Program-made: the position numbers and the translations under genes
Shown: one piece after another, positions 9,563-25,702 of the stretch
Position numbering within the stretch: position 1 is the stretch's first letter
Layout of the letters: every line of letters begins with the position of its first letter
NCBI RefSeq assembly: GCF_000024725.1
Contig: NC_013960.1
Location: forward strand, 1 to 64,000
Reading direction: 5' to 3'
Source: Nitrosococcus halophilus Nc 4
GTDB lineage: Bacteria; Pseudomonadota; Gammaproteobacteria; Nitrosococcales; Nitrosococcaceae
DNA length: 64,000 bases
The notes under the pieces: generated by a model
Seen by the model: the letters and a program-made list of their open reading frames with translations, nothing else
Database searches by the model: none
Told to the model about the DNA's origin: nothing

Positions 9563-10133
9563 AAGCAAGATCCATGAAGTTATCCTCACCACCTTAAGTG
9601 AAGACGGGCAGATTCATGCAGCACCCATGGGCATTTGGGAAGAGAAAGGCAATTTTATCGTGGCTCCTTTCAAGCCCTCTACCACCTATAACAATTTATC
9701 CCGCTACCCTGAGTGTGTAGTCAACTACACAGACGATGTTCGGGTATTTGCAGGATCGGTTACGGGTCGGCGCCATTGGCCTACCCAAGCAGCTACCCGT
9801 GTCTACGGGGGGGTCCTGGTACAAGCTTTGGCCCATAGTGAACTGCGGGTGACTCAATTGCAGGATACGGATCCTCGAGCCCATTTTTATTGCCGGGTAA
9901 TATACGAAGCGAACCATAGGCCTTTTCGTGGTTTCAACCGGGCCCAAGGGGCCGTTATCGAAGCCGCCGTGTTGGTAAGCCGTTTACATCTCTTACCTTT
10001 CGATAAGATTGAAAGAGAATTGAAATATCTCCAAATTGCTGTTGACAAGACTGGAGGACCTCGTGAGTGGGAAGCCTGGGAATGGTTGATGGAACAGGTT
10101 CAGCATTATCGTGGGGAGGAAATGAAGTCATGA
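9549..10133 (+). CDS. DUF447 family protein, probable H4MPT/methanofuran accessory gene
   Basis: A 194-aa protein with a flavin-reductase-like split-barrel look: it opens LESKIHEVILTTLSEDGQIHAAPMG and continues with TTYNNLSRYPECVVNYTDDV. DUF447 proteins are found mainly in methanogens and in bacteria with the tetrahydromethanopterin pathway. No reaction has been assigned that I can name. A longer in-frame start at 9465 exists, but ATG 9549 follows GGAGGG at 9541-9546 and gives the usual N-terminus. It overlaps the upstream gene by 14 nt and shares an ATGA overlap with mfnB, which indicates translational coupling. Confidence 0.78.
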   Translation: MARLESKIHEVILTTLSEDGQIHAAPMGIWEEKGNFIVAPFKPSTTYNNLSRYPECVVNYTDDVRVFAGSVTGRRHWPTQAATRVYGGVLVQALAHSELRVTQLQDTDPRAHFYCRVIYEANHRPFRGFNRAQGAVIEAAVLVSRLHLLPFDKIERELKYLQIAVDKTGGPREWEAWEWLMEQVQHYRGEEMKS

Positions 10134-10810
10134 ACCGCTGGCTGGCCAGTGTTCGTAATCTGGAAGAGGTCAGCAGCTTGCTTGCGGAAGGGCCTGACAT
10201 CATTGATCTTAAGGAACCCAAAGAAGGAGCTTTGGGGGCTCTATCCTCAGAAACCATCTGCCAGGCTGTAGCCTTGATCGGAGGTCGTTGTCCCACTAGT
10301 GCCACTATCGGTGATCTCCCCATGGAACCAGCACCCATTTGCCATGCCGTGGAACAAATCGCAGCCACTGGGGTGAACTACGTGAAAATTGGTCTGTTCC
10401 CCGATGACCGGGTACCTGATTGCTTGATAGCTCTGCAGCCATTGGCAGTTCAAGGAATTTCTTTGGTAGGCGTGATGTTCGCCGACAAACGGCCCGATTT
10501 TTCTTGGATATCCTTGATGGAGAAGGTGGGCTTTACAGGAGCCATGTTGGATACGGCCGCTAAAGATGGCCACAATTTGCTCAGCCATCTGTCACTGGCT
10601 GAGCTGAGTGGCTTCGTGCAAACAGCCCGCAGTGGTGGTCTAGTCAGCGGCTTGGCAGGTTCTCTTAGTTTTGAGGATATACCCAAGCTGTTGCCTTTAG
10701 GAGCTGATTATTTGGGATTTCGTAGCGCTTTATGCTGTGCTGGGCAGCGGCAATCTAGCCTTGATCCAAAGGCTATTGCTTTGCTTAAGCGCGCTTTGAA
10801 TAGGCGCTGA
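10130..10810 (+). CDS. mfnB: (5-formylfuran-3-yl)methyl phosphate synthase MfnB (DUF556)
   Basis: MfnB condenses two glyceraldehyde-3-phosphate molecules into the furan precursor of methanofuran. The 226-aa TIM-barrel starts MNRWLASVRNLEEV. It shows the conserved DIIDLKEPKEGALGAL segment carrying a catalytic lysine near residue 27, and the later MLDTAAKDGHNL segment carrying a second conserved lysine. The start is ATG 10130 in an ATGA overlap with the DUF447 stop, not the upstream in-frame ATG at 10067. As the last gene of the DHPS-like/DUF447/mfnB operon, it links that operon to the fhc genes 5 kb away, whose products need methanofuran (or an analogue) as formyl carrier. Confidence 0.85.
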   Translation: MNRWLASVRNLEEVSSLLAEGPDIIDLKEPKEGALGALSSETICQAVALIGGRCPTSATIGDLPMEPAPICHAVEQIAATGVNYVKIGLFPDDRVPDCLIALQPLAVQGISLVGVMFADKRPDFSWISLMEKVGFTGAMLDTAAKDGHNLLSHLSLAELSGFVQTARSGGLVSGLAGSLSFEDIPKLLPLGADYLGFRSALCCAGQRQSSLDPKAIALLKRALNRR

Positions 10811-12576: not shown

Positions 12577-14280
12577 ATGAGCTGGCCGAATCTTTATGAG
12601 GTTAAATCAAAGATGGTTCCACGCCGTTTTCTGGTGGTATTTTTTTTGGTCGTTATCCTATTTGGGGCGGGGTTGCTTGCCTTTCCCATTGGAAAAAACG
12701 CTTACCAACCTCCGCCTCCCACCGCCAAATTTGATCTGTCAAAATTGGAAACAGAACCTGTGTGCCCGGAGGTGGATCCCCTATGGCGGAAATCCCAGGT
12801 TATTGATGGTGTTTTGATAGAGGAGTCTCCCCTTTGTCATCCAGATAATCCCGCCTTAGTGGCCGCTTTTGTGAAAGGCACTAACAATATTTCCCATGAT
12901 ACCTTGATGGAATCAGGGTTGGCGATGGATGCCGTTACCAAGGGGGAAGACTTGGATGGGGACGGTGACCCGGATGTTATTGAGATCCGACTTGAAGTGG
13001 CTGAATTAAACGGGCGTTCCCCCGACTATGCTGAGCCTATTCCCGGTTATTTCATTGCTCCAGGTATTCAGCCCGGCTTTTGGGCCTTTGTCCCTAAAAC
13101 CCATGGCATGTCTACTGAAAACTTCGAAAGCCTGAAGGCTAACCCATTACTGCGGTTGCCTTCCCCTACCATCCGGGTCGAAGCAGGGGATAGGATAAGA
13201 ATAATTCTGGAAAATACCCATTATCTGCCTCACACGATCCATTTTCATGGGGTCGATCATCCTTACATGAATGGGATGGGCAAAGGTAATGATGGGGTGC
13301 CAGAGACGAGCCACCGACCGGTGATGCCTGGAGAAAGTTTTATTTATGAAATGAAGCCAAGGCAGACGGGTACCATGCTCTATCATTGCCATGAACAAGC
13401 GCCTGTCCATGTCATGCTAGGGTTGATGGGGATGTTCGTTGTGGAAGAGAATCGCCCTAATAACTGGGTCCAAACCTTAAATGTGGGAGCAGGACAGGTG
13501 CGTCATCCTTCCGTGGCTGTTAAAGAAAATTACGATCGGGAATATGATCTGATTTACCAAGAGGTGGACCAGGATCTTAATAATTTGATTAGAACAGCAA
13601 ATGATCCCCGCTTGATCGCCAAGGCCACCACCCGCGGCTATGATATGACTGAGGGTACCCCTGATTACTTTTTGCTCAATGGACAATCATTTCCCTATAC
13701 GTTGCGAGAATCACTTATCGTTGTCAATGCCAATGAACGTGTCAAATTGCGTTTGGCCAATGGGGGAGACGATAAGTACATCGCTATCCATAGCCATGGA
13801 CACAGGATGAGAATCACCCATTATGACGGGATAGAGCATAACCCGGAGGCTCAGGTTACGCGGGATGTGGCTGATCTCAGTCCAGCCCAGCGCTTGGATT
13901 TAGTCCTCACTACCATTGATGATGGTTTGCATAGCTTCGGCGAAGGGGTATGGATGTTTCACGACCACCAAGAGAAGGCGCTGACTTCTGACGGGATGTA
14001 TCCAGGGGGAGGAATTACCTTGATTGTTTATCGCTCCTACCTTGGTGAAAATTATATGCCGCTACTCCACGGTGTCGATATCAAGCCATTTTTCTCTAAA
14101 GCATTCTATGAAAGAAAAGTACCGGCTTGGAGTAGCTATGACGAAGCAGGCATGTTAGGTGATCCTGAACTGGTAACTGGCTTCGTTAGTATCCGCTCTC
14201 TATCATTAACTTTCCTTGCGGGATTGCTGTTAGGAGGCATTGTGATTGTAATGGGCGCACTCAAAAGACGTGCTTCGTAA
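12577..14280 (+). CDS. Multicopper oxidase with apparent type 1 copper site in the N-terminal cupredoxin half
   Basis: A 567-aa protein with one N-terminal and one C-terminal hydrophobic helix, so probably membrane-anchored with the oxidase outside the cytoplasm. Four HxH motifs for the trinuclear copper cluster are visible: HTIHFHG (about 219), YHCHEQAPVH (about 269), HSHGH (about 405) and FHDHQ (about 461). The Cys-His-Met set expected for the type 1 copper (HCHEQAPVHVMLGLMG) lies in the first half, and the last motif has Asp where laccases have Cys. A DxDGDGDPD loop near residue 126 resembles a calcium-binding loop. The substrate is unknown. A start at ATG 12613 is also possible, but GAGG precedes 12577 at good spacing. 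Confidence 0.82.
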   Translation: MSWPNLYEVKSKMVPRRFLVVFFLVVILFGAGLLAFPIGKNAYQPPPPTAKFDLSKLETEPVCPEVDPLWRKSQVIDGVLIEESPLCHPDNPALVAAFVKGTNNISHDTLMESGLAMDAVTKGEDLDGDGDPDVIEIRLEVAELNGRSPDYAEPIPGYFIAPGIQPGFWAFVPKTHGMSTENFESLKANPLLRLPSPTIRVEAGDRIRIILENTHYLPHTIHFHGVDHPYMNGMGKGNDGVPETSHRPVMPGESFIYEMKPRQTGTMLYHCHEQAPVHVMLGLMGMFVVEENRPNNWVQTLNVGAGQVRHPSVAVKENYDREYDLIYQEVDQDLNNLIRTANDPRLIAKATTRGYDMTEGTPDYFLLNGQSFPYTLRESLIVVNANERVKLRLANGGDDKYIAIHSHGHRMRITHYDGIEHNPEAQVTRDVADLSPAQRLDLVLTTIDDGLHSFGEGVWMFHDHQEKALTSDGMYPGGGITLIVYRSYLGENYMPLLHGVDIKPFFSKAFYERKVPAWSSYDEAGMLGDPELVTGFVSIRSLSLTFLAGLLLGGIVIVMGALKRRAS

Positions 14281-14405: not shown

Positions 14406-15413
14406 CTAGGCTTCTTGGTGGTAAGCCACTACCCGTTCCACTTCGTTTTTAGAGCCGAGGATGACAGGTACTCGTTGGTGAATACCTTCGGGATCTACTT
14501 CTAAAATGCGCTGTTGGCTGGTGGAGCTGGCACCGCCGGCTTGTTCCACGATGAAACTCATGGGGTTGGCTTCATACATTAAACGCAATCGGCCAGGTTT
14601 ACTCGGGTCCCGGCTATCCCAGGGGTACATAAAAATCCCGCCGCGGGTCAGAATCCGGTAGACTTCCGCCACCATGGAGGCAACCCAGCGCATGTTGAAA
14701 TTCTTGCCTCGGGGACCTTCCTTCCCTTGTATGCATTCCTCAATATACCGTTGTACCGGTGCTTCCCAGAAACGTTGATTAGACATATTGATGGCGAATT
14801 CCCCAGTGTCCTCCGGAATGGTCATATTTGGATGGGTGAGGATAAATTCGCCAATGTCCTGGTCTAGGGTGAAACCATTGACGCCATGGCCGGTCGTTAA
14901 CACCATCATGGTAGTAGGACCGTAGATGCAAAATCCAGCGCACACTTGCTGGGTACCCGGTTGTAGGAAATCTTTCTCGGTGGGTTCAGGCACACCATCC
15001 GGGCAGCGTAGAATGGAGAAGATGGTGCCTACCGAGATGTTGACATCAATGTTGGAAGAGCCATCCAAAGGATCAAAAAGCAGAAGGTATTTACCCTTAG
15101 GATATTGGCTAGGAATGGAAATGATACCTTCAACTTCTTCTGAGGCCATGGCGGCTAGATGCCCGGTCCATTCCAGAGACTTCACCATGACTTCATTGCT
15201 GATCACGTCGAGTTTTTTCTGGCCTTCGCCTTGAACATTTTCGGTCCCCGCAGCCCCTAGTATATCGATGAGACCACCACGGTTAACTAAGTGGGAGATA
15301 GTTTTACAGGCAGTCACGATATCGTTAAGCAGCCCGGTAAAATCGCCTGTAGCGTTGGGGATACTGCGTTGTTCCTCGATAATGAACTGAGTTAAAAAGG
15401 TACCACTATGCAT
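14406..15413 (-). CDS. fbp: Fructose-1,6-bisphosphatase, class I
   Basis: Hydrolyses fructose-1,6-bisphosphate in gluconeogenesis and the Calvin cycle. The 335-aa protein carries the metal and substrate motifs of class I FBPase: the SEEVEGI segment near residue 91, the metal-binding [15 protein letters not shown] near 110-125, and the C-terminal [21 protein letters not shown]. It has no operon partner here. Its presence fits an autotroph that fixes CO2 by the Calvin cycle, but gluconeogenesis alone would also require it. Confidence 0.95.
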
Positions 15414-15772: not shown

Positions 15773-16597
15773 TTAAGCAGTTTCTTGGATCTGGATCAAA
15801 ATCTCACCATGGCCCAAGGTGGCCATATCGCCGCAAAAACGATGGACCCGGCCCGTTTTAGTGAGGGTGGTAAAGCGGGTTTCTAGATTCTGGTAAGATT
15901 TCAGCATAAGGGGTAAAAACCCCAACGTGTGACGGCCACAGTCATTAAACGTCGCGCTCAGCTTAGCGGGAGCTTGCCAAAGCAAAAGAGTTCCTCGCTT
16001 CATGCCATATCCTGGATAATTTCCAGTTTTACCCAGCACTGCAATCGTGCCCGCTAACATGCGTGAGCCTAAGTAATCACCTGCGTTTCCTTCGATAAGT
16101 AAAGTTCCTCGACGCATGTGATCTCCAGCACGGGCACCCACATTTCCACTGACAATCACCGTTCCCCCGGCCATGCCGATTTTGTTACCGGGGCGGGCGG
16201 CCCCTAGGAAATCACCACTATTACCCTCGATTCGGAGTAATCCCCCCCCCATTTCACAGCCCGCAAAAGCACCGCTATTGCCGCGGACATTAATTTGACC
16301 GGCATTCATGCCCATGCCTGCATAGGCACCGCAAGGACCCTGGACTTCGATTTGGCCGCCAGAAAGATTTTTACCTAGGTAATCTAGCAGGGCGGTTTCT
16401 CCAGTGAAAACCAGGTGCTTGGTATTGTCCCCAGAAATCTCAAAGAGTTCATCTACCCGCAGGCGGCGATTACCTGTCACCAGGGCAATAGAACCTATTT
16501 CAGCCTTAGAGAGGCCCGCTAAATTTTCTGGAGTGAGCGGGGAGACATCCACCCCCTGGGGAGGAGCAGTTTTTAAGGTCAGAGTCAGCGTATTCAT
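15773..16597 (-). CDS. fhcC: Formyltransferase/hydrolase complex subunit C (formylmethanofuran dehydrogenase C-like)
   Basis: FhcC is the structural subunit of the bacterial Fhc complex, which transfers the formyl group from formyl-H4MPT to a methanofuran analogue and hydrolyses it to formate. The 274-aa protein consists largely of tandem glycine-rich beta-helix repeats (about residues 75-215) of the form GNSGxFxGxxMxxGxIxVxG, as in FwdC/FmdC and the C-terminal domain of glutamate synthase. It is the last gene of the fhcBADC operon, 91 nt after fhcD. The last repeats are followed by the conserved CGRHTLGFLPLML-like segment. Confidence 0.9.
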   Translation of the reverse strand: MNTLTLTLKTAPPQGVDVSPLTPENLAGLSKAEIGSIALVTGNRRLRVDELFEISGDNTKHLVFTGETALLDYLGKNLSGGQIEVQGPCGAYAGMGMNAGQINVRGNSGAFAGCEMGGGLLRIEGNSGDFLGAARPGNKIGMAGGTVIVSGNVGARAGDHMRRGTLLIEGNAGDYLGSRMLAGTIAVLGKTGNYPGYGMKRGTLLLWQAPAKLSATFNDCGRHTLGFLPLMLKSYQNLETRFTTLTKTGRVHRFCGDMATLGHGEILIQIQETA

Positions 16598-16688
16598 GGG
16601 AGGTTTCCAGAAGCCATCATCCTATGGGGTTATCGGCAAGAGGAAATACTCATTCTGTAATTTGGTCATTCTGCTGCTAAGCCATTCG

Positions 16689-17585
16689 TCATGCCATGAT
16701 TTCTTGGAGGTGAAAATGAAAGGGGCCGAGTTTACCGCCGTAGTTACCTGCGCTGATGCGAGAGATCCCATTTTGGGCTCCGAGACTACAGGCGGCGGAG
16801 ATTCCAGCGCGCATGGCTTTTTGGATGTCTTCTTCAGAAAGACCATCAATGACGATTTCCATCACGGATTCAATTTCGGCCGAAAGCTCGGTTCGGGTCT
16901 GTCCTTTAAGGGTGGGGCAAAAAGCTTCGTTGGTGGAGGCATTCAGCCCCTTGTACTTAGAACCTACTTTTGAGCCTGAGCGAACGACACCACCGGGAAA
17001 GGGCATAATCACATTGGGAATTTTTTCCATGGCTGCAATAGCTGCCTCGCAGGCAGCGAGGGCTTGGGGTTGGGATTGGGCAAGAACGAGAAAGTTGCCA
17101 CCTCCTATGGCGGGGATCATGCCCACAGTTTCTTCAGTGAGAAATTCACCGTCCATGACAGGAACTCGCCAATAGCGGCGGCCATTAATTAATTTTGATA
17201 TTTGAAAGCCGTCACCAAAAAAGCGGAGATTTTTTCCCAGGGGAAGGGCTTCACCCTCATGGATTCCGGCAAATAAGGCGGAAGTGGGTGAAGTGAGCAC
17301 GCATTGACCGGCCCGGGTTTCAAGCTGCTTGGCTAATCCTTTGCCCCCCATAGCAAATACCAAAACGGCAACCCCCGGTCGTCCGTCCGGCGTTTCAGAA
17401 GGGTCTAATTCCCGTTCAATGCCTGCTTCACAACCGCAGGCGATCACCGAAGTCGCAAACCCGGTCATGGCTTGAGCCGAATGATGGGCCCACTTGAGAT
17501 TTTGAGCGGTAATAATGACCCGGGTGGCTTTCATGGGGAAAGCTTCAGCAAAAGAGGGGTCAATCTTGACGCCGTTGATGATCAT
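16689..17585 (-). CDS. fhcD: Formylmethanofuran:tetrahydromethanopterin formyltransferase (FhcD)
   Basis: Transfers the formyl group between tetrahydromethanopterin and methanofuran. The 298-aa protein starts MIINGVKIDPSFAEAFPMKA, typical of Ftr/FhcD, and ends with the conserved GISRISAGNYGGKLGPFHFH segment. It overlaps fhcA by an ATGA (17582-17585), so translation is coupled. In bacteria it works inside the Fhc complex in the direction of formate release, supplying an exit from H4MPT-bound C1 units. Confidence 0.93.
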   Translation of the reverse strand: MIINGVKIDPSFAEAFPMKATRVIITAQNLKWAHHSAQAMTGFATSVIACGCEAGIERELDPSETPDGRPGVAVLVFAMGGKGLAKQLETRAGQCVLTSPTSALFAGIHEGEALPLGKNLRFFGDGFQISKLINGRRYWRVPVMDGEFLTEETVGMIPAIGGGNFLVLAQSQPQALAACEAAIAAMEKIPNVIMPFPGGVVRSGSKVGSKYKGLNASTNEAFCPTLKGQTRTELSAEIESVMEIVIDGLSEEDIQKAMRAGISAACSLGAQNGISRISAGNYGGKLGPFHFHLQEIMA

Positions 17586-19249
17586 CGGAATGCTCCCCCA
17601 TGACAGGGATGCACCTGAATACGGCCCCGTCCAGGGTGAACAATTTCTTCATCGTCTATTTTAAAATTGCTAAGCTTTATGGAAAGATAACGATCAAAGT
17701 AGCTAGCAAGCTCCTTTTCTATGTTGTTATCGAATTCCGGCCGGACCACGTGGGTGGTGCCCCAGGTCACCTTGACGACCTCCCCATTTTTAACCACCAG
17801 CTCTCCGTCCTTAAAAACATAGTCGGGTTTAGAGAACATTTTTTCTTTGTCTTCATGTTCCGTATAGACGGTGATATCGGCTGCTGCCCCGACACCCAGA
17901 TGCCCCCGGTCTGAAAGGCCGAGTAGCTTAGCGGCTCCGGCCCGGGTGATGACGGCGATTTCATAGAGGGAGTACTCCCGGTCAATAGCGCCTAGAGTGC
18001 TTGCCTGGGCAGAATCCGGGTGGATAGTGGCTAGCATGTCATTACGGAAGCTGCGGTCCATCAACAATCGGATGAGGTGGGGATAAGTGACAAAGGGCGC
18101 GCCATTGGGATGATCGGTGGTGAGGAATACCCGCCAAGGGTCATCCACTAAAAGAAAGATCTCTAGGCCAATGGCCCACTGTAGGGCATTGACGAAGCTC
18201 TTATCTCGGTATTTAAAAGGGACAATGCCGCAGCCCGCATCGCATTCAATATCCATGCAGACCCACTTCTTGGGGTGGGCATGGCGGTGCCCAGCGTACT
18301 GGCGCATGTTATCACCTGAAGCCGTGACGGTTTGTCCAAAGAGGATCTGACCGACGTCAATAGTAATGTTGGGGTGCTCCTTCACCGCCTCCGCGATTTG
18401 GGCTGCCCCGGAGGAAAATTTGCGGTCACCTTCAGTTCCATAGCTATGGAACTGCACATGGGTAAGATGCATGGGAAGACCCTCAATTCCCTGGATGGTG
18501 TTTAGGGTGGTCTCTATGTTACCCGGCACACCCAGATTACAGCCATGGACATGAAGGGGATGGGGAACGCCTAACTCATGCACCGCTCGGGCAAGATGAA
18601 GCAGGACTTGGCGCGGCGTAGCGCCGTAGTGGGGACCTGGCTCGTCGAGATCCAGCTTGCGTTGATTGAATTTGAAGGCGCTGATGCCGCCGGGATTGAC
18701 CACCTTAATCCCTAGACATTGGCTTGCTTTCAAGGTCCAGGCCACATAGTCGTTAAAGGCTTTCTGGTCCTTGTTCGCTGCCAACATCCGCAGCACATAG
18801 TCGTCACTGCCCAATAAGACATAACCGCCTTTATCCACGATGGGAATATCCCCCATCTCCATATGGGCCTGGCGGGCATTCGTAGGCAATACTGCGGGTT
18901 CGAAGGCTGCCGTATAGCCCATTTCTGCATACCGGTAACCAGTGGTAAAGGTGCTGGGAACGGCATGTCCGCATCCAGCCCGTAATAAATCAGTACGGGC
19001 TAGCGGATCGGCACGGTGGTCTTCCGGTAGCAGGGTGCGGGCGATATTGATTTTGCCCCCACCGATATGGGTATGCATATCAATAGCCCCGGCCATAACG
19101 ATTTTATTGCTCAAATTATAGTTTTGGTCGATAGGGAGATCACCGGGGGAGTCGACAATGCGGCCATCGCGTACATAAATATCACGAACTTCGCCATTGA
19201 TTCCATGCATAGGATCATAGACGGTGCCGCCAGTGAGTTTGATGAGCAT
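17582..19249 (-). CDS. fhcA: Formyltransferase/hydrolase complex subunit A (amidohydrolase)
   Basis: FhcA is the zinc-dependent amidohydrolase subunit that hydrolyses the formyl-carrier to formate. The metal-binding motif DMHTHIGGGK is near residue 57 and further His-rich strands follow (HPLHVHG, HLTHVQFH, TTDHPNGAPF). An in-frame start 159 nt further upstream would overlap fhcB, but ATG at 19249 follows GGGAGGAAGG and begins MLIKLTGGTVYDPMHG, the normal family start. That makes it 555 aa. It sits 34 nt after fhcB and overlaps fhcD. Confidence 0.92.
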   Translation of the reverse strand: MLIKLTGGTVYDPMHGINGEVRDIYVRDGRIVDSPGDLPIDQNYNLSNKIVMAGAIDMHTHIGGGKINIARTLLPEDHRADPLARTDLLRAGCGHAVPSTFTTGYRYAEMGYTAAFEPAVLPTNARQAHMEMGDIPIVDKGGYVLLGSDDYVLRMLAANKDQKAFNDYVAWTLKASQCLGIKVVNPGGISAFKFNQRKLDLDEPGPHYGATPRQVLLHLARAVHELGVPHPLHVHGCNLGVPGNIETTLNTIQGIEGLPMHLTHVQFHSYGTEGDRKFSSGAAQIAEAVKEHPNITIDVGQILFGQTVTASGDNMRQYAGHRHAHPKKWVCMDIECDAGCGIVPFKYRDKSFVNALQWAIGLEIFLLVDDPWRVFLTTDHPNGAPFVTYPHLIRLLMDRSFRNDMLATIHPDSAQASTLGAIDREYSLYEIAVITRAGAAKLLGLSDRGHLGVGAAADITVYTEHEDKEKMFSKPDYVFKDGELVVKNGEVVKVTWGTTHVVRPEFDNNIEKELASYFDRYLSIKLSNFKIDDEEIVHPGRGRIQVHPCHGGAFR

Positions 19250-19283
19250 GGTAGGCCTTCCTCCCGTCAGGCAGGCGATGAAA

Positions 19284-20561
19284 TTAACGATTGTATTGGA
19301 GCATGGCGTTAACAATCTCGGCAGTACTGGGAAGCCCTGATTGCCGCAATTGACGCAGGGGTACGGCGACAACATTGTCACTGCGGTAGGTATGTCCCGG
19401 ATGGTCAATCCCCGGCGTGCCTATGGGGATAAAGACTTCTGGCGCCTGGTTAAAATCCATGCCAGCTCGCCCCAATACTACCGTAGGAATAGAAGTCGCC
19501 GGCGGAGTTCGGCCTTGGTCGAAGGCCGAGATCCACACCAAGGCATCCGCTGCTCCTGATTCGAGTAGGCGTTCAGAGCTGCAGTGATAGGGGTCATAAT
19601 CAGGGTAACCTCGGGCAAAGCTGGTACGTACAGGATAACCCGTCTGCCAGGTGCAGACTTGGTTAGCGGTGATCTGACCGTTCTGCCCGCCCAGGGGAAG
19701 TCCCGAGCAGCGGGTCGTTTTATTTAGGGCCATGATTAACTCACAGAGCATTTGGATAGTGAGTTCGGCATGAGGGAAAGTCCATTGTCCTGCAGCCCAG
19801 GTCACCACGCCATACTGGGCTTGCTTTAATCGATCCGCTAAAGCGGCTAATTCCTCCATGGCAATTCCAGCTACCGCCTCGGCTTGGAGGAGATGGCCAG
19901 CTACTTGGGCCCGTAGCGCGGCCACTACTTCTGGAAGTTCCTCCTGTTTACAGTGGATGACTAGAGGGGCACGACCATCAGGCCCGTAGGCCGCCTGCCC
20001 ACTGGGAGATTTGCCTAAATAGATAATTTCCCGCTGGGCAGTGTCTTGGTTAAAGAGAGTTTCCGGGTTCCAGATATAGCGTTCGAAAAAGCGGGGAAAG
20101 TGGGTTTCAATATCGCTGCCCACCACCAGCAAGAGATCGACCCGATTTTTCACTTCACTGAGGGTTGTGGTTATCCAACCGCTGTCTTGAAGGGCCAAAA
20201 TGTTGCGCAGGGCCGCTTCGGAATCCATATGATCGACCACTGCCCCGTAGCGATCGGCGAGCGCTAATGCGGCCCGAATCCCTTCCACATCAGTGGCAAG
20301 CCCAGATATCAGGGGTAGTTTCGCTTGGCTGAGAATTTCAACGGCGCGTGCGATCGCCGTTTCTAGGCGGGTTGCTTTACCTTGAATTTGAGGGGTGCTC
20401 TCGCCTATTTTCTGTTCAAAAGCGGGTTGGGTCACCGGGCAGCCGTTCTCTAGAACGGTGAGCCGATTGCCTTCTACCTTCACCTTAAGGTCATCGGCAG
20501 CAATACCACAAAATGGGCTGGGGACCTCATCCCAGACTCCAGGCTGGATCTGGCGGGTCAT
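19284..20561 (-). CDS. fhcB: Formyltransferase/hydrolase complex subunit B (formylmethanofuran dehydrogenase B-like)
   Basis: FhcB is related to the molybdopterin/tungstopterin subunit of archaeal formylmethanofuran dehydrogenase. The N-terminus has only one cysteine in PSPFCGIAADDL, where archaeal redox-active enzymes have a multi-Cys iron-sulfur site. Loss of redox sites is the known state of bacterial FhcB, whose complex is a hydrolase. The 425-aa length fits. The gene follows the pterin dehydratase by 8 nt with a GAGGAAG Shine-Dalgarno sequence, and fhcADC follow, giving the fhcBADC order known from methylotrophs. Confidence 0.9.
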   Translation of the reverse strand: MTRQIQPGVWDEVPSPFCGIAADDLKVKVEGNRLTVLENGCPVTQPAFEQKIGESTPQIQGKATRLETAIARAVEILSQAKLPLISGLATDVEGIRAALALADRYGAVVDHMDSEAALRNILALQDSGWITTTLSEVKNRVDLLLVVGSDIETHFPRFFERYIWNPETLFNQDTAQREIIYLGKSPSGQAAYGPDGRAPLVIHCKQEELPEVVAALRAQVAGHLLQAEAVAGIAMEELAALADRLKQAQYGVVTWAAGQWTFPHAELTIQMLCELIMALNKTTRCSGLPLGGQNGQITANQVCTWQTGYPVRTSFARGYPDYDPYHCSSERLLESGAADALVWISAFDQGRTPPATSIPTVVLGRAGMDFNQAPEVFIPIGTPGIDHPGHTYRSDNVVAVPLRQLRQSGLPSTAEIVNAMLQYNR

Positions 20562-20569
20562 GATCTTCC

Positions 20570-20947
20570 TCAGTCGTATTTAATATACTTAAAGCGAGGG
20601 TCATCTGGGGTCCCTTCTAGGGGCCCTTCCTCTTTCCCCGGTTGCCATTGAATGACCTCTTCGATTTTCTTGGCTAGGGTAAAGTCTTTGTCGGTAACGC
20701 CTTTGGCATGGTGATTGACCAGCCTAACTTCCACCCAAGCGTAAGAGGCAGTCAGGTCGGGGTGATGCCAAGCCGCTTCTGCCAAATGGCCCACAGCATT
20801 AATGACCATCAGGGTTCCCTTCCAGCTGTTGGTTCGGTATTTCCTGCGGATCCAACCTTTTTCGTAATACCAATGGGGCAGTTCTTTTTTGAGCCGCTCC
20901 TCAATCTCCTCTTCGGTGTAAGTCCTTTCTTTTACTTGCTCAGTCAT
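20570..20947 (-). CDS. Pterin-4a-carbinolamine dehydratase family protein
   Basis: A 125-aa protein with a short charged N-terminal part and a pterin carbinolamine dehydratase fold at about 25-110. The family motif is clear: HLAEAAWHHPDLTASYAWVE, then LVNHHAKGVTDKDFTLA. Members in C1-metabolism clusters are thought to act on, or protect, the pterin of tetrahydromethanopterin; the exact substrate is inferred. It is the first gene of the pcd-fhcBADC operon, which supports a role with the pterin C1 carrier rather than with aromatic-amino-acid hydroxylase recycling. A 6-bp inverted repeat TAGGCT/AGCCTA lies just upstream. Confidence 0.85.
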   Translation of the reverse strand: MTEQVKERTYTEEEIEERLKKELPHWYYEKGWIRRKYRTNSWKGTLMVINAVGHLAEAAWHHPDLTASYAWVEVRLVNHHAKGVTDKDFTLAKKIEEVIQWQPGKEEGPLEGTPDDPRFKYIKYD

Positions 20948-21011: not shown

Positions 21012-21623
21012 CTAAGACTTTACTTTAAACATCTGGCATTCAATTTGATTCTTGCGCAATTGCTGGCGGATCCGCTGGAGATTAGGGAGATTGCTGCTAG
21101 GGCCAATGCGGACTCGGTGCCAAGTTTTGCTGTTACCGATGGTCACGGTTTGAATGGTGGCCTCTACTCCCATCAGCGCCAAATCAGCCTTGCGTTTGTC
21201 GGCTTGGGCATAACTGCGGAATGAACCTGCTTGCAGGACATAAACTTGCGAGGGTACCGATTTGGAGGGTGATGGCTTAGGCGTGGGCTTGGGGGAGGGT
21301 TCGGGGGGCGCCTTGGGTTGAGGTTTTGGCTGTTGTTGAGAGGATAACGGTTTAGGTTCTGGTACCGCCACCTCCATTTTGGGCAGTAGGGTATAAAATT
21401 CAAACCGGGGTGTTGTGGACTGCTCCGTACTGGCTTTTTGGGCTTCGATGGCATTTTCGACTGGGGGAGTATTATCAGCGCTCTTCCCTATCCAGGGAAG
21501 CCAGTTCTGGAGGGAAGGCAAAAACATTACCAAGGCGCCAACCAGCAATCCAGCAATAAGCCAGGACCAGGGTTTAGATGTTTGACCAGAGGAGGTGCGT
21601 CGTCTGCGTTTATTAGGGGGCAT
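21012..21623 (-). CDS. SPOR-domain cell-division protein (FtsN-like)
   Basis: A 203-aa bitopic inner-membrane protein. The cytoplasmic N-terminus is basic (NKRRRR), then one transmembrane helix (about 19-40), a periplasmic Pro/Lys/Gln-rich linker (about 85-125), and a C-terminal SPOR domain (about 127-202: YVLQAGSFRSYAQADKRKAD). SPOR domains bind denuded septal peptidoglycan. It lies 3 nt after argS in the same direction. In Pseudomonas an FtsN-like SPOR protein follows argS too, so an FtsN-type role is likely but not proven. Confidence 0.85.
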   Translation of the reverse strand: MPPNKRRRRTSSGQTSKPWSWLIAGLLVGALVMFLPSLQNWLPWIGKSADNTPPVENAIEAQKASTEQSTTPRFEFYTLLPKMEVAVPEPKPLSSQQQPKPQPKAPPEPSPKPTPKPSPSKSVPSQVYVLQAGSFRSYAQADKRKADLALMGVEATIQTVTIGNSKTWHRVRIGPSSNLPNLQRIRQQLRKNQIECQMFKVKS

Positions 21624-21626
21624 GGG

Positions 21627-23384
21627 TTACATGGCCTCCGGTGCCGAGACACCCAATAATGTCAGACCATTTTTTATGACCTGTTGGGTTGCCGCAATCA
21701 AGGTTAATCGAGCATCCCGTAGTTCAGGGGTATCCACAAGAAAGGTATGGGCATTGTAATAAGTATGAAAATCTCTCGCTAAATCCATAAGGTAATAGGC
21801 CAATAGGTGGGGCGCACTTTGGGTGGCAGCATCTTCAACCACCTCTGAATAACAGGAGAGGCGGTCCAGTAACGCTACCTCATGGGACTCATTAAGCTTC
21901 TGTAATTGTTTCCTGCCTTGTTTTGGATCCCAGGCAAGCCCCCGTTCTTCAAGTTGGCGGAAAACGCTGGAAATACGGGCATGGGCGTACTGCACATAAT
22001 AGACGGGGTTTTCGTTGCTTTGGGACTTAGCCAGCTCCAGATCAAAATCCATATGTTGTTCAGCGCTGCGCATGACATAAAAGAACCGGGCTGCGTCCTT
22101 CCCCACCTCTTGGCGCAATTCTCGCAAAGTGACGAACTCACCACTGCGGGTGGACATTTGTACTTTTTCCTTGCCGCGGTAAAGAATGGCAAATTGGACC
22201 AGTCGGATCTCCAGTTGCTGGGGATCAGCACCTAGGGCCTGGAGGGATGATTTAACCCGTTGCACGTAGCCATGGTGATCGGCGCCCCAGACGTCGATTA
22301 TTTTAGGGTAACCCCGTTCCAGTTTATTCAAGTGGTACGCAATGTCCGAGGCAAAATAAGTAGGTTGACCATTTTCCCGGATGACGACCCGATCTTTTTC
22401 GTCGCCGAAATCAGTGGAACGAAACCACCAGGCGCCTTCTTTCTGATAAAGATGGCTCGAAGTCTTGAGCTGTTCTACCGCCTGCTCTACCGCACCGGTT
22501 TCCATGAGATGGCGTTCGGAAAACCATTCGTCATAGGTGACCCCAAATTCAGCCAGATCCTCACGGATGTCCGCCAAAATCGAATTAAGCCCCTGATCAA
22601 AAACTTGCCGATAACCCCTTTCTCCCAACAGGTCTTTGCACTTTTGAATAAGCGCGTCGATGTACTGTTCTTTGTCTCCCGTAGGGGCATCCGGCGGTAA
22701 TCCGTCTAGGATCTCTTGCCCAGGACGATGGAAAATATCGTCCTTTTCAGTCTTAAGAACCTGAGCAATATCCCGAACATAACTGCCCCGATAGCCATTG
22801 GCAGGAAAGGGGAGAGTCTCGCCACACAGTTCTAAGTATCGTAACCAGACGCTGGCGGCAAGAATATCCATTTGGCGTCCAGCATCGTTCACATAGTATT
22901 CCCGGTGAATCTTGTAGCCCACAGTGGTGAGTAAGCGAGCGAGGGCGTCGCCATAAGCTGCTCCCCGACCATGGCCCACATGGAGAGGTCCAGTAGGGTT
23001 GGCAGAGACAAACTCTAAGTGGACTGGCTTATTTTGCCCTAGATTGCTGCAGCCAAAGTCTTCCCTTTGGTCTAGCACCAGGGAAACCACAGCCTGAAAG
23101 GCAGGTAAAGCCAGGGTGAAATTGATAAAACCTGGGCCCGCTATCTCGACTTTTTCCACCCAAGGGTGTTCCGGCAAGCGGCTCACGATAAGTCCGGCTA
23201 GATCGCGCGGTTTTTGCCGCGCTTCCTTGGCCAACATCATGGTGATATTACTGGCAAAATCCCCATGACGTTTGTCCCGAGTCCGTTTGACTTGGATGTT
23301 ATGGGTATCCCAATGGGGCAGCATTCCTTCTTGTTGCAAAGAGGAAAGGGCAGTAACGATAAGTTTCCGAAGTTGTTCTTTCAA
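21627..23384 (-). CDS. argS: Arginyl-tRNA synthetase
   Basis: Class I synthetase that charges tRNA-Arg. The HIGH-type motif is [20 protein letters not shown], the catalytic domain continues with [11 protein letters not shown], and the DALR anticodon-binding domain is at the C-terminus. The open frame extends to an ATG at 23525, but that overlaps the end of priA and adds 47 residues with no family match. A TTG at 23384 gives [16 protein letters not shown], aligned with normal ArgS N-termini, and 585 aa, the usual size. The start is therefore probably TTG. It lies downstream of priA and upstream of the SPOR gene. Confidence 0.93.
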
Positions 23385-23488
23385 GAGAGGGTCTTCTTTA
23401 GTGATTGTCTTTTGAAAATGAAAAACAGAAGATTCTAACCTGGCCGTTGCCGAACGAGAAGGGCTCGTGTGATTGCTTTTGGGGAGGT

Positions 23489-25702
23489 TTACATGAGATC
23501 GACCGGGTCCACATCTAAGGACCACTGTACCTTCCGGGCTGCTTTGAGATGCTCTAGTTCAGGTACCCAGGCAGCCAATAATCGTTGCAAATGGGTGCGA
23601 GAATTTCCTTGGAGTAGAAGTTGAGCGCGGTAACGGCCAGCTCGGCGCTCCATGGGAGCGGGTACCGGTCCGAGTAAGGTTATCCCCTGGGAATTAAACT
23701 CTGTGGCCAGTTTCCGCGCTGCTTCGAGAAATATCATTGGAGCGGCAGGGGACACGGCTCTTGCGCGAAGTAGGACCAGGTAACCCAGGGGAGGAAATCC
23801 GATTTGGCGGCGCTCTTCCAGAAGTATCTCGGCGACGTGTCGATAGCCATGGTCGACTAGCGCCGTCAGCAAAGGATGCCCAGGGTGATGAGTCTGGATC
23901 AACACTTCGCCGGGCTTATTGCCCCGACCGGCCCGTCCCATCACTTGAAGGATGAGCTGAGCCATGTGCTCTCCAGCACGAAAGTCGCTGCCAAATAGAC
24001 CCTGGTCAGCATCGAGGATTCCCACCAGCGTGATATTGGGGTAGTGGTGGCCCTTGGCCAACATCTGGGTGCCAATCAAGAGGCGATATTTTCCACTATG
24101 AACACCCTCGAGCATCTCATTCAAGGTCCCTACCCGACGGGTGGTATCCCTATCAATACGTGCAATCTCAACCTCCGGAAAAAAAGTTTTAAGCCCAGTT
24201 TCCACCTGTTCTGTGCCTAACCCCCGTGGGCGCAAGAGCGGATTTTCACACTGAGGGCAGCTGGTGGGCAAAGGATATTCAGCTCCGCAGTGGTGGCAAA
24301 GCAGTCGGTCGGTGCGCTGATGGACGGTCATATAAGCGTCGCAGCGGCGACAAGGTACAACAAAGCCGCATTCGTGGCAGATTAGAGTCGGCGCGAAGCC
24401 CCGTCGGTTAAGAAACAGTAATGCCTGATTTCCTTGTCCCAAATGATGCTTCAAGGCCGCCAGCATAGACGGAGAGATTCCAGCCTCCAGCGGGCGGGAG
24501 CGGACATCAATCAATTGAATCCGTGGCGTTTGCGCTGGGCCTGCCCGTTGTGACAGCCGCAGCAAGCTGTAGCGTCGTCGCTTGACATTATCAAGACTTT
24601 CCAAGGAGGGGGTCGCACTGCCTAATACAACCGGTATCTTAGCTTGGTAGGCCCGCATGATGGCTAGATCCCGGGCATGGTAGCGGAATCCTTCCTGTTG
24701 TTTAAAGGAAGGATCGTGTTCTTCATCAATAATAATTATCCCCAGATGCTGGAGAGGGGTCCATATGGCGGAGCGGGTTCCAATGACCACCGCAGCTCTG
24801 CCCTCATAAGCAGCGAGCCAAGCGGCTAAGCGCTCCCGGTCACTCAGGGCAGAATGCAAAACCGCGATGGGCGCTTGAAGCTGGCGGCGAAAGCGTTCCA
24901 CGATTTGGGGCGTTAGCCCGATTTCCGGAATAAGCACCAGGGCCTGCCGGTTGTGAGTGATTATCTTTTCAATGGCCTGCAGGTAGACTTCTGTTTTGCC
25001 ACTGCCAGTCACCCCTTCTAATAAGAAAGGTTGAAATTGTTGCTGTGCCGCAAGGAGGGTGGTGACGGCTGCTTTCTGATCGTCATTGAGCTGGTGTCGA
25101 AGTTGCTCCTTTAGGGGTTCTTTGTCCTTGCAGAGGAGTTCTTCTTGAGAATGCACCCAACCCTTAGCAATGAGGCTGCGAAGGCTGCTTTGGCAAGCAC
25201 CCAATTGCTCCTTGATCTGGGATGAGGTTAAACCCTCTGGATAGGGGCGTAGTAGCTCTACCAGTTGTTGCTGCCGAGGAGCTCGGTTAAGGGTTGCTAA
25301 CTCAGCGGCGCGGCCTTTAGGGCTCAGAAACCACCGTCGGTAGACAGGGGGGGCAGCGGGTTTCCCCTGGCGTAGGTGTTGAGGTAAAGCGCTAAAAAAG
25401 ACTTCTCCGGGGGGATGATGATAATACTCAGTGGCCCACGTGAGGAGTTGGAGTAAAGAGGGGGGAATGATGGGCGTTTTGTCGAGGCAGTATTGGGCTT
25501 GCCTTAGCTTATCGGCAGTGATTGGACTTTGAGAGACGACTCGGGCGAGGATGCCCACCACTGTGCGTCTGCCAAAAGGGACCTGTAAACGGATGCCAGG
25601 TTGCAATTGTTGACGCGGAACTCCGGCTGGCGGTAGGTAATCAAAGTAACGCCGCAAGGGGGAAGGGATGGCTAGACGCAGAATAGTGGGAGGGGTCACC
25701 AT
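23489..25702 (-). CDS. priA: Primosomal protein N', replication restart helicase
   Basis: PriA reloads the replisome at collapsed forks. The 737-aa protein has the N-terminal DNA-binding domain ([10 protein letters not shown]), Walker [19 protein letters not shown] (about 228-245), DEEH box [20 protein letters not shown], and the eight-cysteine zinc module ([31 protein letters not shown]) inside the helicase core. Helicase motif [14 protein letters not shown] follows. It leads the priA-argS-SPOR group. Confidence 0.96.

Follow-up and report, generated by a model that had tools for sequence, protein, structure and literature searches.

The Fhc complex of Methylorubrum extorquens (PDB 6s6y) is described, in the sections of Hemmann 2021 (PMC8141765) that deal with it, as an assembly of four subunits (FhcABCD) that uses polyglutamylated methylofuran (MYFR) as a bound formyl shuttle, and those sections give Orf17, MyfA, MyfB and MfnB/E/F roles in MYFR synthesis. 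Among ammonia oxidizers of the family Nitrosococcaceae, Nitrosococcus halophilus and N. wardiae were reported to encode the entire tetrahydromethanopterin (H4MPT) gene set plus methanol dehydrogenase, and the partial clusters of N. watsonii and N. oceani were interpreted as recent loss of function (Chistoserdova 2016, PMC5020050). The same paper used the word "enigmatic" for what H4MPT/methanofuran reactions do in species that are neither methanogenic nor methylotrophic. A methanotroph ancestor is proposed in the part of Khadka 2018 (PMC6215863) that concerns descent.

The window, a stretch of 64,000 nucleotides at the start of contig NC_013960.1 of N. halophilus Nc 4, carries five genes on the minus strand that together cover exactly 15773-20947, in the order pcd-fhcB-fhcA-fhcD-fhcC, and every one of them matches its family. 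The pterin-4a-carbinolamine dehydratase-like gene pcd (20570..20947) is the first gene (PF01329, 92.6 bits against a cut-off of 26; NF002017, 81.8 bits against 80). It is followed by fhcB, for subunit B (19284..20561; TIGR03129, 441 bits, cut-off 328; no Pfam match); fhcA, for the amidohydrolase (formyl-methylofuran hydrolase) subunit (17582..19249; TIGR03121, 812 bits, cut-off 393); fhcD, for the formylmethanofuran-H4MPT formyltransferase, Ftr (16689..17585; TIGR03119, 460 bits, cut-off 293); and fhcC, for the GXGXG-repeat subunit C (15773..16597; TIGR03122, 296 bits, cut-off 131). All four Fhc subunits thus lie together, each above its curated cut-off. The intergenic gaps of 8, 34, -4 and 91 bases fit a single operon; a promoter and terminator scan gave results at chance level. 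For fhcA, the TTG listed as the start (19408) probably makes the frame too long; an ATG at 19249 is preceded by a good ribosome site. The operon lies between genes for a class 1 fructose-1,6-bisphosphatase (FBPase; 14406..15413, minus strand) and a SPOR-domain protein (21012..21623, minus strand), both conserved neighbors, followed by two further minus-strand reading frames that serve as synteny landmarks and that we take, from their sequences, to be ArgS (21627..23525) and PriA (23489..25702). The plus-strand gene mfnB (orf22; 10130..10810), for the 4-HFC-P synthase of the furan-ring step of methylofuran synthesis, also falls within the window.

FhcA contains the HxH, Lys, His, His and Asp motifs, which we take to be metal ligands by reference to the archaeal FwdA structure. 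In FhcB, Ala stands where the archaeal subunit has its W/Mo-ligand Cys/Sec and two of the four Fe-S cysteines are left, and because of these two features the subunit is probably non-redox; a dehydrogenase role was rejected, as the ligand Cys is absent. The pcd product matches its family and carries the full active-site motif of pterin-4a-carbinolamine dehydratase.

The original prediction of a complete fhcBADC operon headed by a pterin dehydratase and belonging to an H4MPT-linked C1 pathway, with an ammonia oxidizer such as Nitrosococcus considered as a host, is borne out: the host is congeneric with N. oceani and N. watsonii, and its genome holds the remaining pathway genes. Searches for fae, mtdB, mch and β-RFAP synthase (mptG), of which fae and mch had been named as the genes on which the claim depended, located every one of them once, near C2:3.992-3.999 Mb; mtdB was identified through its Mpt_N domain, and mptG scored 182 bits against the TIGR00144 cut-off of 113.5. 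The genome also encodes mtdA, a myfB-type ligase, a CitG-like gene and orf17. All of fae, mtdA/B, mch, fhc and mptG are present, and the scores of the operon and pathway gene matches are far beyond chance. Since this gene set was published in 2016 (PMC5020050), the operon finding as first posed was already known.

In the pathway as we read it, Fae would condense formaldehyde with dephospho-H4MPT, MtdB/MtdA and Mch would carry the product on to formyl-H4MPT, FhcD would transfer the formyl group to the complex-bound MYFR, and hydrolysis of formyl-MYFR by FhcA would give formate, making Fhc the predicted final step of a complete formaldehyde-to-formate route in N. halophilus. MYFR may be the prosthetic group of Nitrosococcus Fhc, as the presence of its synthesis genes predicts. 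The methanol dehydrogenase of this genome is closest to XoxF and bears the motif DEWDYDGVN, which we take to be the lanthanide signature of XoxF-type enzymes, and an MxaJ-like protein is also encoded. With the full pathway, these genes are consistent with detoxification of formaldehyde derived from methanol that ammonia monooxygenase would make from methane; energy gain from methanol is equally likely, and we regard detoxification as the main function as plausible but somewhat short of probable.

Comparison of six Nitrosococcaceae genomes separates the pathway into two parts. FhcD (FTR), MfnB, MyfA, MyfB, Orf17, MfnF and MfnE were matched in all six, and an mfnD-like gene sits in the methylofuran cluster of each. 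By contrast, fae, mch and mptG occur in two of the six (G000 and G003), as do mtdA, mtdB, the CitG-like gene and the operon pcd, the last four counted with single-sequence queries for which these two genomes served as positive controls; mtdB of G003 is damaged by an internal deletion. In the remaining four (G001, G002, G004 and G005, namely N. oceani, N. watsonii and two reduced genomes), homology searches for fae, mch, mtdA, mtdB and mptG found none, and no recognizable H4MPT synthesis route was found. The H4MPT genes are absent from three separate spots, and the order pntB-myfA-myfB-orf17-mfnD-mfnF-pabB-mfnE-aroB is intact in all four. From gene content we assign fae, mch, mtdA, mtdB, mptG, the CitG-like gene, pcd and perhaps XoxF to a putative H4MPT module, and fhcBADC, mfnB, mfnE, mfnF, the mfnD-like gene, orf17, myfA and myfB to a putative Fhc-MYFR module; we infer that the two ATP-grasp genes fill the MyfA and mfnD-like roles. 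The operon is headed by pcd in the two genomes with H4MPT genes (the pcd adjacency count was 17/58), and this co-loss suggests a probable part for PCD in the repair or synthesis of the H4MPT pterin. The four relatives seem to have dropped the formaldehyde route and kept its last complex together with the genes for that complex's own cofactor.

The original prediction had also proposed descent from, or exchange with, methanotrophs. The priA-argS-SPOR-(pcd)-fhcBADC-FBPase locus is common to the sister family, Methylophaga included, and because these surroundings are shared, vertical inheritance of the fhc locus within the order is favored. An old exchange may nevertheless have occurred, since in the Fhc tree Nitrosococcaceae group with Methylococcus and locus L089 (support 100/98). 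That tree, and the predominance of Methylococcales among the top FhcD matches outside the family (up to 86%; the best 80 of 544 confirmed places), could also speak for a recent arrival of the pathway in N. halophilus from a methanotroph. The surroundings of fhc are, however, shared by 6/6 family genomes and 6/6 sister-family stretches, and for this reason recent horizontal gain was rejected as the main reading. In addition, ArgS adjoins fhc in just 4 of 80 named loci (three from Methylophaga, and L077), many of the loci being too short upstream, and Mch, MptG and Fae of Methylococcus (L012) are only 59, 46 and 65% identical. We therefore consider recent arrival very improbable. Trees of Fhc proteins group the four genomes lacking H4MPT genes (support 91 and 99/97; alternative grouping p 0.03), trees of neighbor proteins keep Nitrosococcus together (support 98 and 87/91), and the neighbor proteins do not reject the grouping of the four (p 0.069); the H4MPT genes may thus have been lost once or twice.

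Retention in these four genomes could reflect decay in progress, the Fhc and MYFR genes being leftovers of a recently lost pathway, which agrees with the published interpretation for N. watsonii and N. oceani. Several features point this way: the usual fhcD start in these two species is CTG, with no ATG, GTG or TTG there; the MyfA-type gene encodes 332 aa in G005 and 308 aa in G001 versus 403 aa in N. halophilus; insertions separate orf17 from myfB in G004 and G005; and constraint on FhcA and FhcB is weaker in the pair without H4MPT genes (dN/dS 0.14 and 0.21) than in the pair with them (0.05 each). Against decay, the module's 11 genes all occur as open frames in 4/4 genomes across three genera, including genomes as small as 1.85 and 2.01 Mb, and the missing genes are those for H4MPT. 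The FhcA metal-site motifs are intact in all four. In the single testable pair, N. oceani versus N. watsonii, the 11 genes are under purifying selection (dN/dS 0.07-0.35; FhcB 0.21, FhcA 0.14, FhcD 0.07, FhcC 0.16, MYFR genes 0.13-0.35). A decaying remnant is on this evidence unlikely.

Residues fixed in other Fhc sequences and changed in all four genomes number 13/792, versus 4/701 in ArgS, FBPase and PriA, where just 3/6 sister-family rows were long enough for the PriA count. With no clear excess over the neighbors (Fisher p 0.084), these shared substitutions make a weak case for a shift in specificity, which was not adopted. Among the five FhcA sites, however, three (A310V, G312S/A and R316Q) fall in one loop.

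Because the four relatives keep Fhc and MYFR genes as open frames without H4MPT genes, the comparison suggests a second, previously undescribed, H4MPT-independent job for Fhc. We are fairly confident in the joint reading that Fhc is the last formaldehyde-to-formate step in N. halophilus, that the family holds two modules, and that Fhc has a job without H4MPT. Import of H4MPT, or synthesis of an H4MPT-like pterin by unknown enzymes, would leave the Fhc donor unchanged, and gene absence is judged by homology alone (in genomes 98-100% complete); yet fae, mch, mtdA, mtdB and mptG are jointly missing, which leaves no known enzyme to load an H4MPT-type carrier and makes this alternative extremely unlikely.

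As for the donor behind an H4MPT-independent job, our leading but tentative guess is N5- or N10-formyl-tetrahydrofolate (formyl-H4F), which would yield H4F and formate; most simply, by analogy with N5-formyl-H4MPT, it would be the N5 form. It is thus conceivable, though we would not call it probable, that Fhc and methylofuran act without any H4MPT in these four ammonia oxidizers, with FhcD drawing the formyl group from formyl-H4F and FhcA freeing formate. FolD, GcvT and PurN are encoded in all six family genomes. A search that was positive in 11/14 controls detected 5-formyl-H4F cyclo-ligase in no family genome (0/6); 38/57 sister-family (Methylophagaceae-type) genomes, some of them incomplete, likewise gave no match. 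In G008 (1.1 Mb, 100% complete) neither FTR nor cyclo-ligase was found, and Fhc is therefore no obligatory substitute for the cyclo-ligase. PurU is present in N. oceani and N. watsonii, which are therefore probably already able to hydrolyze 10-formyl-H4F; a swap in which Fhc replaces PurU was discarded, PurU occurring in 2/4 genomes without H4MPT genes and 0/2 with them.

If the folate reading is true, an archaeal-type C1 complex is coupled to folate and methylofuran is a folate-pathway cofactor. In this family evolution has in effect run an experiment, deleting the H4MPT genes while keeping Fhc with its cofactor genes, so that the "enigmatic" role becomes testable with few strains and enzymes. 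Co-loss also sorts poorly known cluster genes, placing the CitG-like gene and pcd with H4MPT and orf17, the mfnD-like gene, mfnE and mfnF with methylofuran. Since four relatives keep Fhc and methylofuran genes without H4MPT genes, fhc alone is, judged by gene content, no marker of the H4MPT pathway in Nitrosococcaceae, and fhc genes are unsafe as markers of methylotrophy.

Compared with archaeal Fwd/Fmd (PDB 5t5i and relatives), the A and B subunits and Ftr are homologous, and subunit C is so by family, but the Nitrosococcus FhcB has Ala for the W/Mo-ligand Cys/Sec and an incomplete set of Fe-S cysteines. PurU and 5-formyl-H4F cyclo-ligase would perform the same job as that proposed for Fhc, recovery of H4F from formyl-H4F, with proteins unrelated to it. 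FhcA, FhcB and FhcD match chains of the M. extorquens complex, in which FhcB is a shorter chain of 361 aa that matches the 425-aa protein of Nitrosococcus only from residue 59 of the latter onward; unlike in M. extorquens, the complex occurs in the four Nitrosococcaceae relatives without H4MPT genes. The gene set is identical to that of the methylotroph H4MPT-linked formaldehyde oxidation that PMC5020050 describes in N. halophilus and N. wardiae, whereas the family comparison presented here splits that pathway into an H4MPT module, in 2/6 genomes, and an Fhc-methylofuran module, in 6/6.

Gene calls and profile matches place pcd, fhcB, fhcA, fhcD and fhcC, in this order, on the minus strand at window positions 15773-20947. 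The original prediction of an fhc operon led by a pterin dehydratase was thereby borne out with exact coordinates, and all four subunits of the formyltransferase/hydrolase complex (Fhc) pass the NCBIfam curated equivalog cut-offs in the profile search. The leading gene encodes a pterin-4a-carbinolamine dehydratase (PF01329; NF002017, 81.8 bits against a cut-off of 80), in which residues 57-88 carry the complete dehydratase motif. FhcA probably starts at 19249, not at 19408.

The window covers bases 1-64000 of contig C2. The original prediction had proposed a search of the rest of the genome (4,145,260 bases; contigs C2, 4,079,427, and C1, 65,833) for fae, mtdB, mch and the beta-RFAP synthase gene (mptG), and all four are present. 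They lie in a single cluster of tetrahydromethanopterin (H4MPT) and methylofuran genes at C2:3.991-4.004 Mb, comprising mtdA, mptG, mtdB, an ATP-grasp gene, mch, a RimK-like ligase gene, a CitG-like gene (presumably orf7), fae, a HisA-like gene (orf17), an mfnD-like ATP-grasp gene, mfnF, pabB and mfnE; mfnB is outside it, at window 10130-10810. The first ATP-grasp gene and the RimK-like ligase gene are taken as putative myfA/orfY and myfB/orf5, respectively. The products of mtdA and mtdB both contain an Mpt_N domain and were provisionally told apart by sequence. At about C2:3.982-3.985 Mb is the sole methanol dehydrogenase seen, which is XoxF-like, of the lanthanide type (931 bits to XoxF 6dam; fetched locus L003:7063-8886, equal to C2 about 3983063-3984886, minus strand), with an MxaJ-like partner (TIGR03871, 283 bits, cut-off 212). 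The dehydrogenase carries a DYD motif, the mark of lanthanide enzymes. As only this type was seen, methanol oxidation in the organism, an ammonia oxidiser on the strength of its genus, may depend on rare earths.

Gene content was compared across six Nitrosococcaceae genomes. In addition to that of the window (G000), these are N. oceani ATCC 19707 (G002) and N. watsonii C-113 (G004), both of the same genus; G003 (4,022,640 bases), which we take to be N. wardiae; and G001 (1,848,551 bases) and G005 (2,011,873 bases plus a 6,436-base contig), which belong to other genera of the family, probably the acidophilic Nitrosacidococcus and Nitrosoglobus. FhcD (FTR), MfnB, MyfA, MyfB, Orf17, MfnF and MfnE were found in all six, as were an mfnD-like gene and pabB within the clusters. 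Only G000 and G003 have mch, fae and mptG; the same two of six have mtdA, mtdB, the CitG-like gene and the operon pcd, as judged by one joined single-sequence query with G000 and G003 as positive controls. One weak match (33-35%) to a pcd paralogue lies elsewhere in each of the six genomes. The multicopper oxidase gene that adjoins the fhc locus (window 12577-14280) is likewise present in G000 and G003, whereas the regions retrieved from the remaining four do not contain it.

These four keep the order pntB, myfA, myfB, orf17, mfnD-like gene, mfnF, pabB, mfnE, aroB, and compared with G000 they are without mtdA-mptG-mtdB, mch and citG-fae, which are gone from three separate spots. (The names pntA/B, aroB, gltX and sspB are provisional assignments from sequence.) Unrelated insertions interrupt the methylofuran cluster of G004 and G005, and extra frames lie between mfnE and aroB in G001. 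XoxF and MxaJ were not found in the sspB-gltX interval of G001 and G005, their place in G000, with sspB matched by eye. In G003, mtdB (L128:12116-12858 on contig C1, minus strand) is damaged by an internal deletion of ~190 bases, a frame change and smaller differences, so that an H4MPT set with an intact mtdB is shown in one of the six genomes; MtdA might stand in for MtdB in G003. Hemmann 2021 (PMC8141765) equates MfnB with Orf22, MfnE with Orf21 and MfnF with Orf9, and reports from deletions that Orf17, MyfA and MyfB are required for methylofuran, the orf17 mutant still producing methenyl-dH4MPT. From the roles given there, the kept genes are therefore those for methylofuran and Fhc, and the missing ones those for H4MPT.

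All 11 genes of the retained module have open frames in each of the four genomes, and the metal-site motifs of FhcA are kept in all of them. The usual fhcD start reads CTG in N. oceani (L124:11176) and N. watsonii (L126:10688), which could mean that translation begins at CTG or that the protein is shorter, and the MyfA-type gene is shorter in G005 (332 aa) and G001 (308 aa) than in the window's genome (403 aa). When N. oceani is compared with N. watsonii, the Fhc genes have dN/dS values of 0.07-0.21 and the methylofuran genes of 0.13-0.35, against 0.03-0.22 for the neighbours FBPase, ArgS, PriA and the SPOR protein; the pair with H4MPT genes shows tighter constraint on FhcA and FhcB (0.05 each) and the same value for FhcD (0.07). 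Among 533 columns that do not vary in 70-88 other Fhc sequences, seven differ in all four; the reference rows come from Methylococcales, Methylophaga and the family, irrespective of their H4MPT gene content, and exclude those lacking a near full-length gene. Apparent changes in 13 N-terminal FhcD columns of N. oceani and N. watsonii are an artefact of the chosen start. Once the rows were matched, Fhc did not significantly exceed the neighbour proteins in such changes (13/792 versus 4/701 sites). We read this as Fhc having probably retained its function under somewhat relaxed constraint. The FhcA loop 310-316 (window about 18302-18322), ASGDNMR in the window, reads VSSD.MQ or VSAD.MQ in all four.

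The arrangement priA-argS-SPOR-(pcd)-fhcBADC-FBPase is shared by all six Nitrosococcaceae, with FBPase inverted in G005, and the same surroundings occur in 6/6 loci fetched from the sister family of the same order, where pcd gave only one weak match, in a single locus; the Fhc proteins of the sister-family locus from G040 are identical to those of Methylophaga lonarensis (L019). Among 80 named loci, ArgS adjoins fhc in four (L019, L056 and L064, of Methylophaga, and L077), and pcd is immediately upstream of fhcB in 17 of the 58 with enough upstream sequence. Together with the presence of FTR in 60 of the order's 63 genomes, the shared locus supports vertical inheritance from the order's ancestor. 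An Fhc tree of 29 hand-chosen rows (of 73 usable) places Nitrosococcaceae beside Methylococcus and L089, a position also compatible with an old exchange between the two lineages. One loss of H4MPT and two losses both fit.

In its usual reaction, FhcD takes the N5-formyl group from H4MPT and passes it to methylofuran. The closest substitute donor would be formyl-tetrahydrofolate, and FolD, GcvT and PurN are present in all six family genomes. 5-Formyl-tetrahydrofolate cyclo-ligase (PF01812) was found in none of the six by a search positive in 11 of 14 controls; single-sequence queries found PurU in N. oceani and N. watsonii and not in the other four. Against the folate reading, most sister-family genomes also have no cyclo-ligase match (19 of 57 have one), and G008 is without both cyclo-ligase and FTR, so this reading is the simplest hypothesis, not a demonstrated one. 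Order-wide, 44 of 63 genomes, some incomplete, are without a cyclo-ligase match, which is unusual next to the controls.

In the open-access literature searched, we found no description of an Fhc-methylofuran module that is kept as a working unit in the absence of H4MPT. Judged by titles and abstract starts, only PMC5020050 and PMC6215863 treat Nitrosococcus together with H4MPT, methanol dehydrogenase, formyltransferase, methanofuran or fhcD, and papers on Nitrosacidococcus, Nitrosoglobus and formaldehyde make no link to the Fhc/H4MPT pathway; the N. tergens genome paper (PMC8115276) has no word starting with methanol, methanofuran, methanopterin or formyl. Khadka 2018 (PMC6215863) has built a methanotroph-ancestor hypothesis on the Nitrosococcus set. 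The full H4MPT set of N. halophilus is already in print: Chistoserdova 2016 (PMC5020050) credits N. halophilus and N. wardiae with the entire complement, and describes partial clusters for N. watsonii and N. oceani, which that paper interprets as a recent loss of function. The gene set of G000 agrees with the complement printed there for N. halophilus, whereas the damaged mtdB of G003 contradicts the printed "entire complement" if G003 is N. wardiae.
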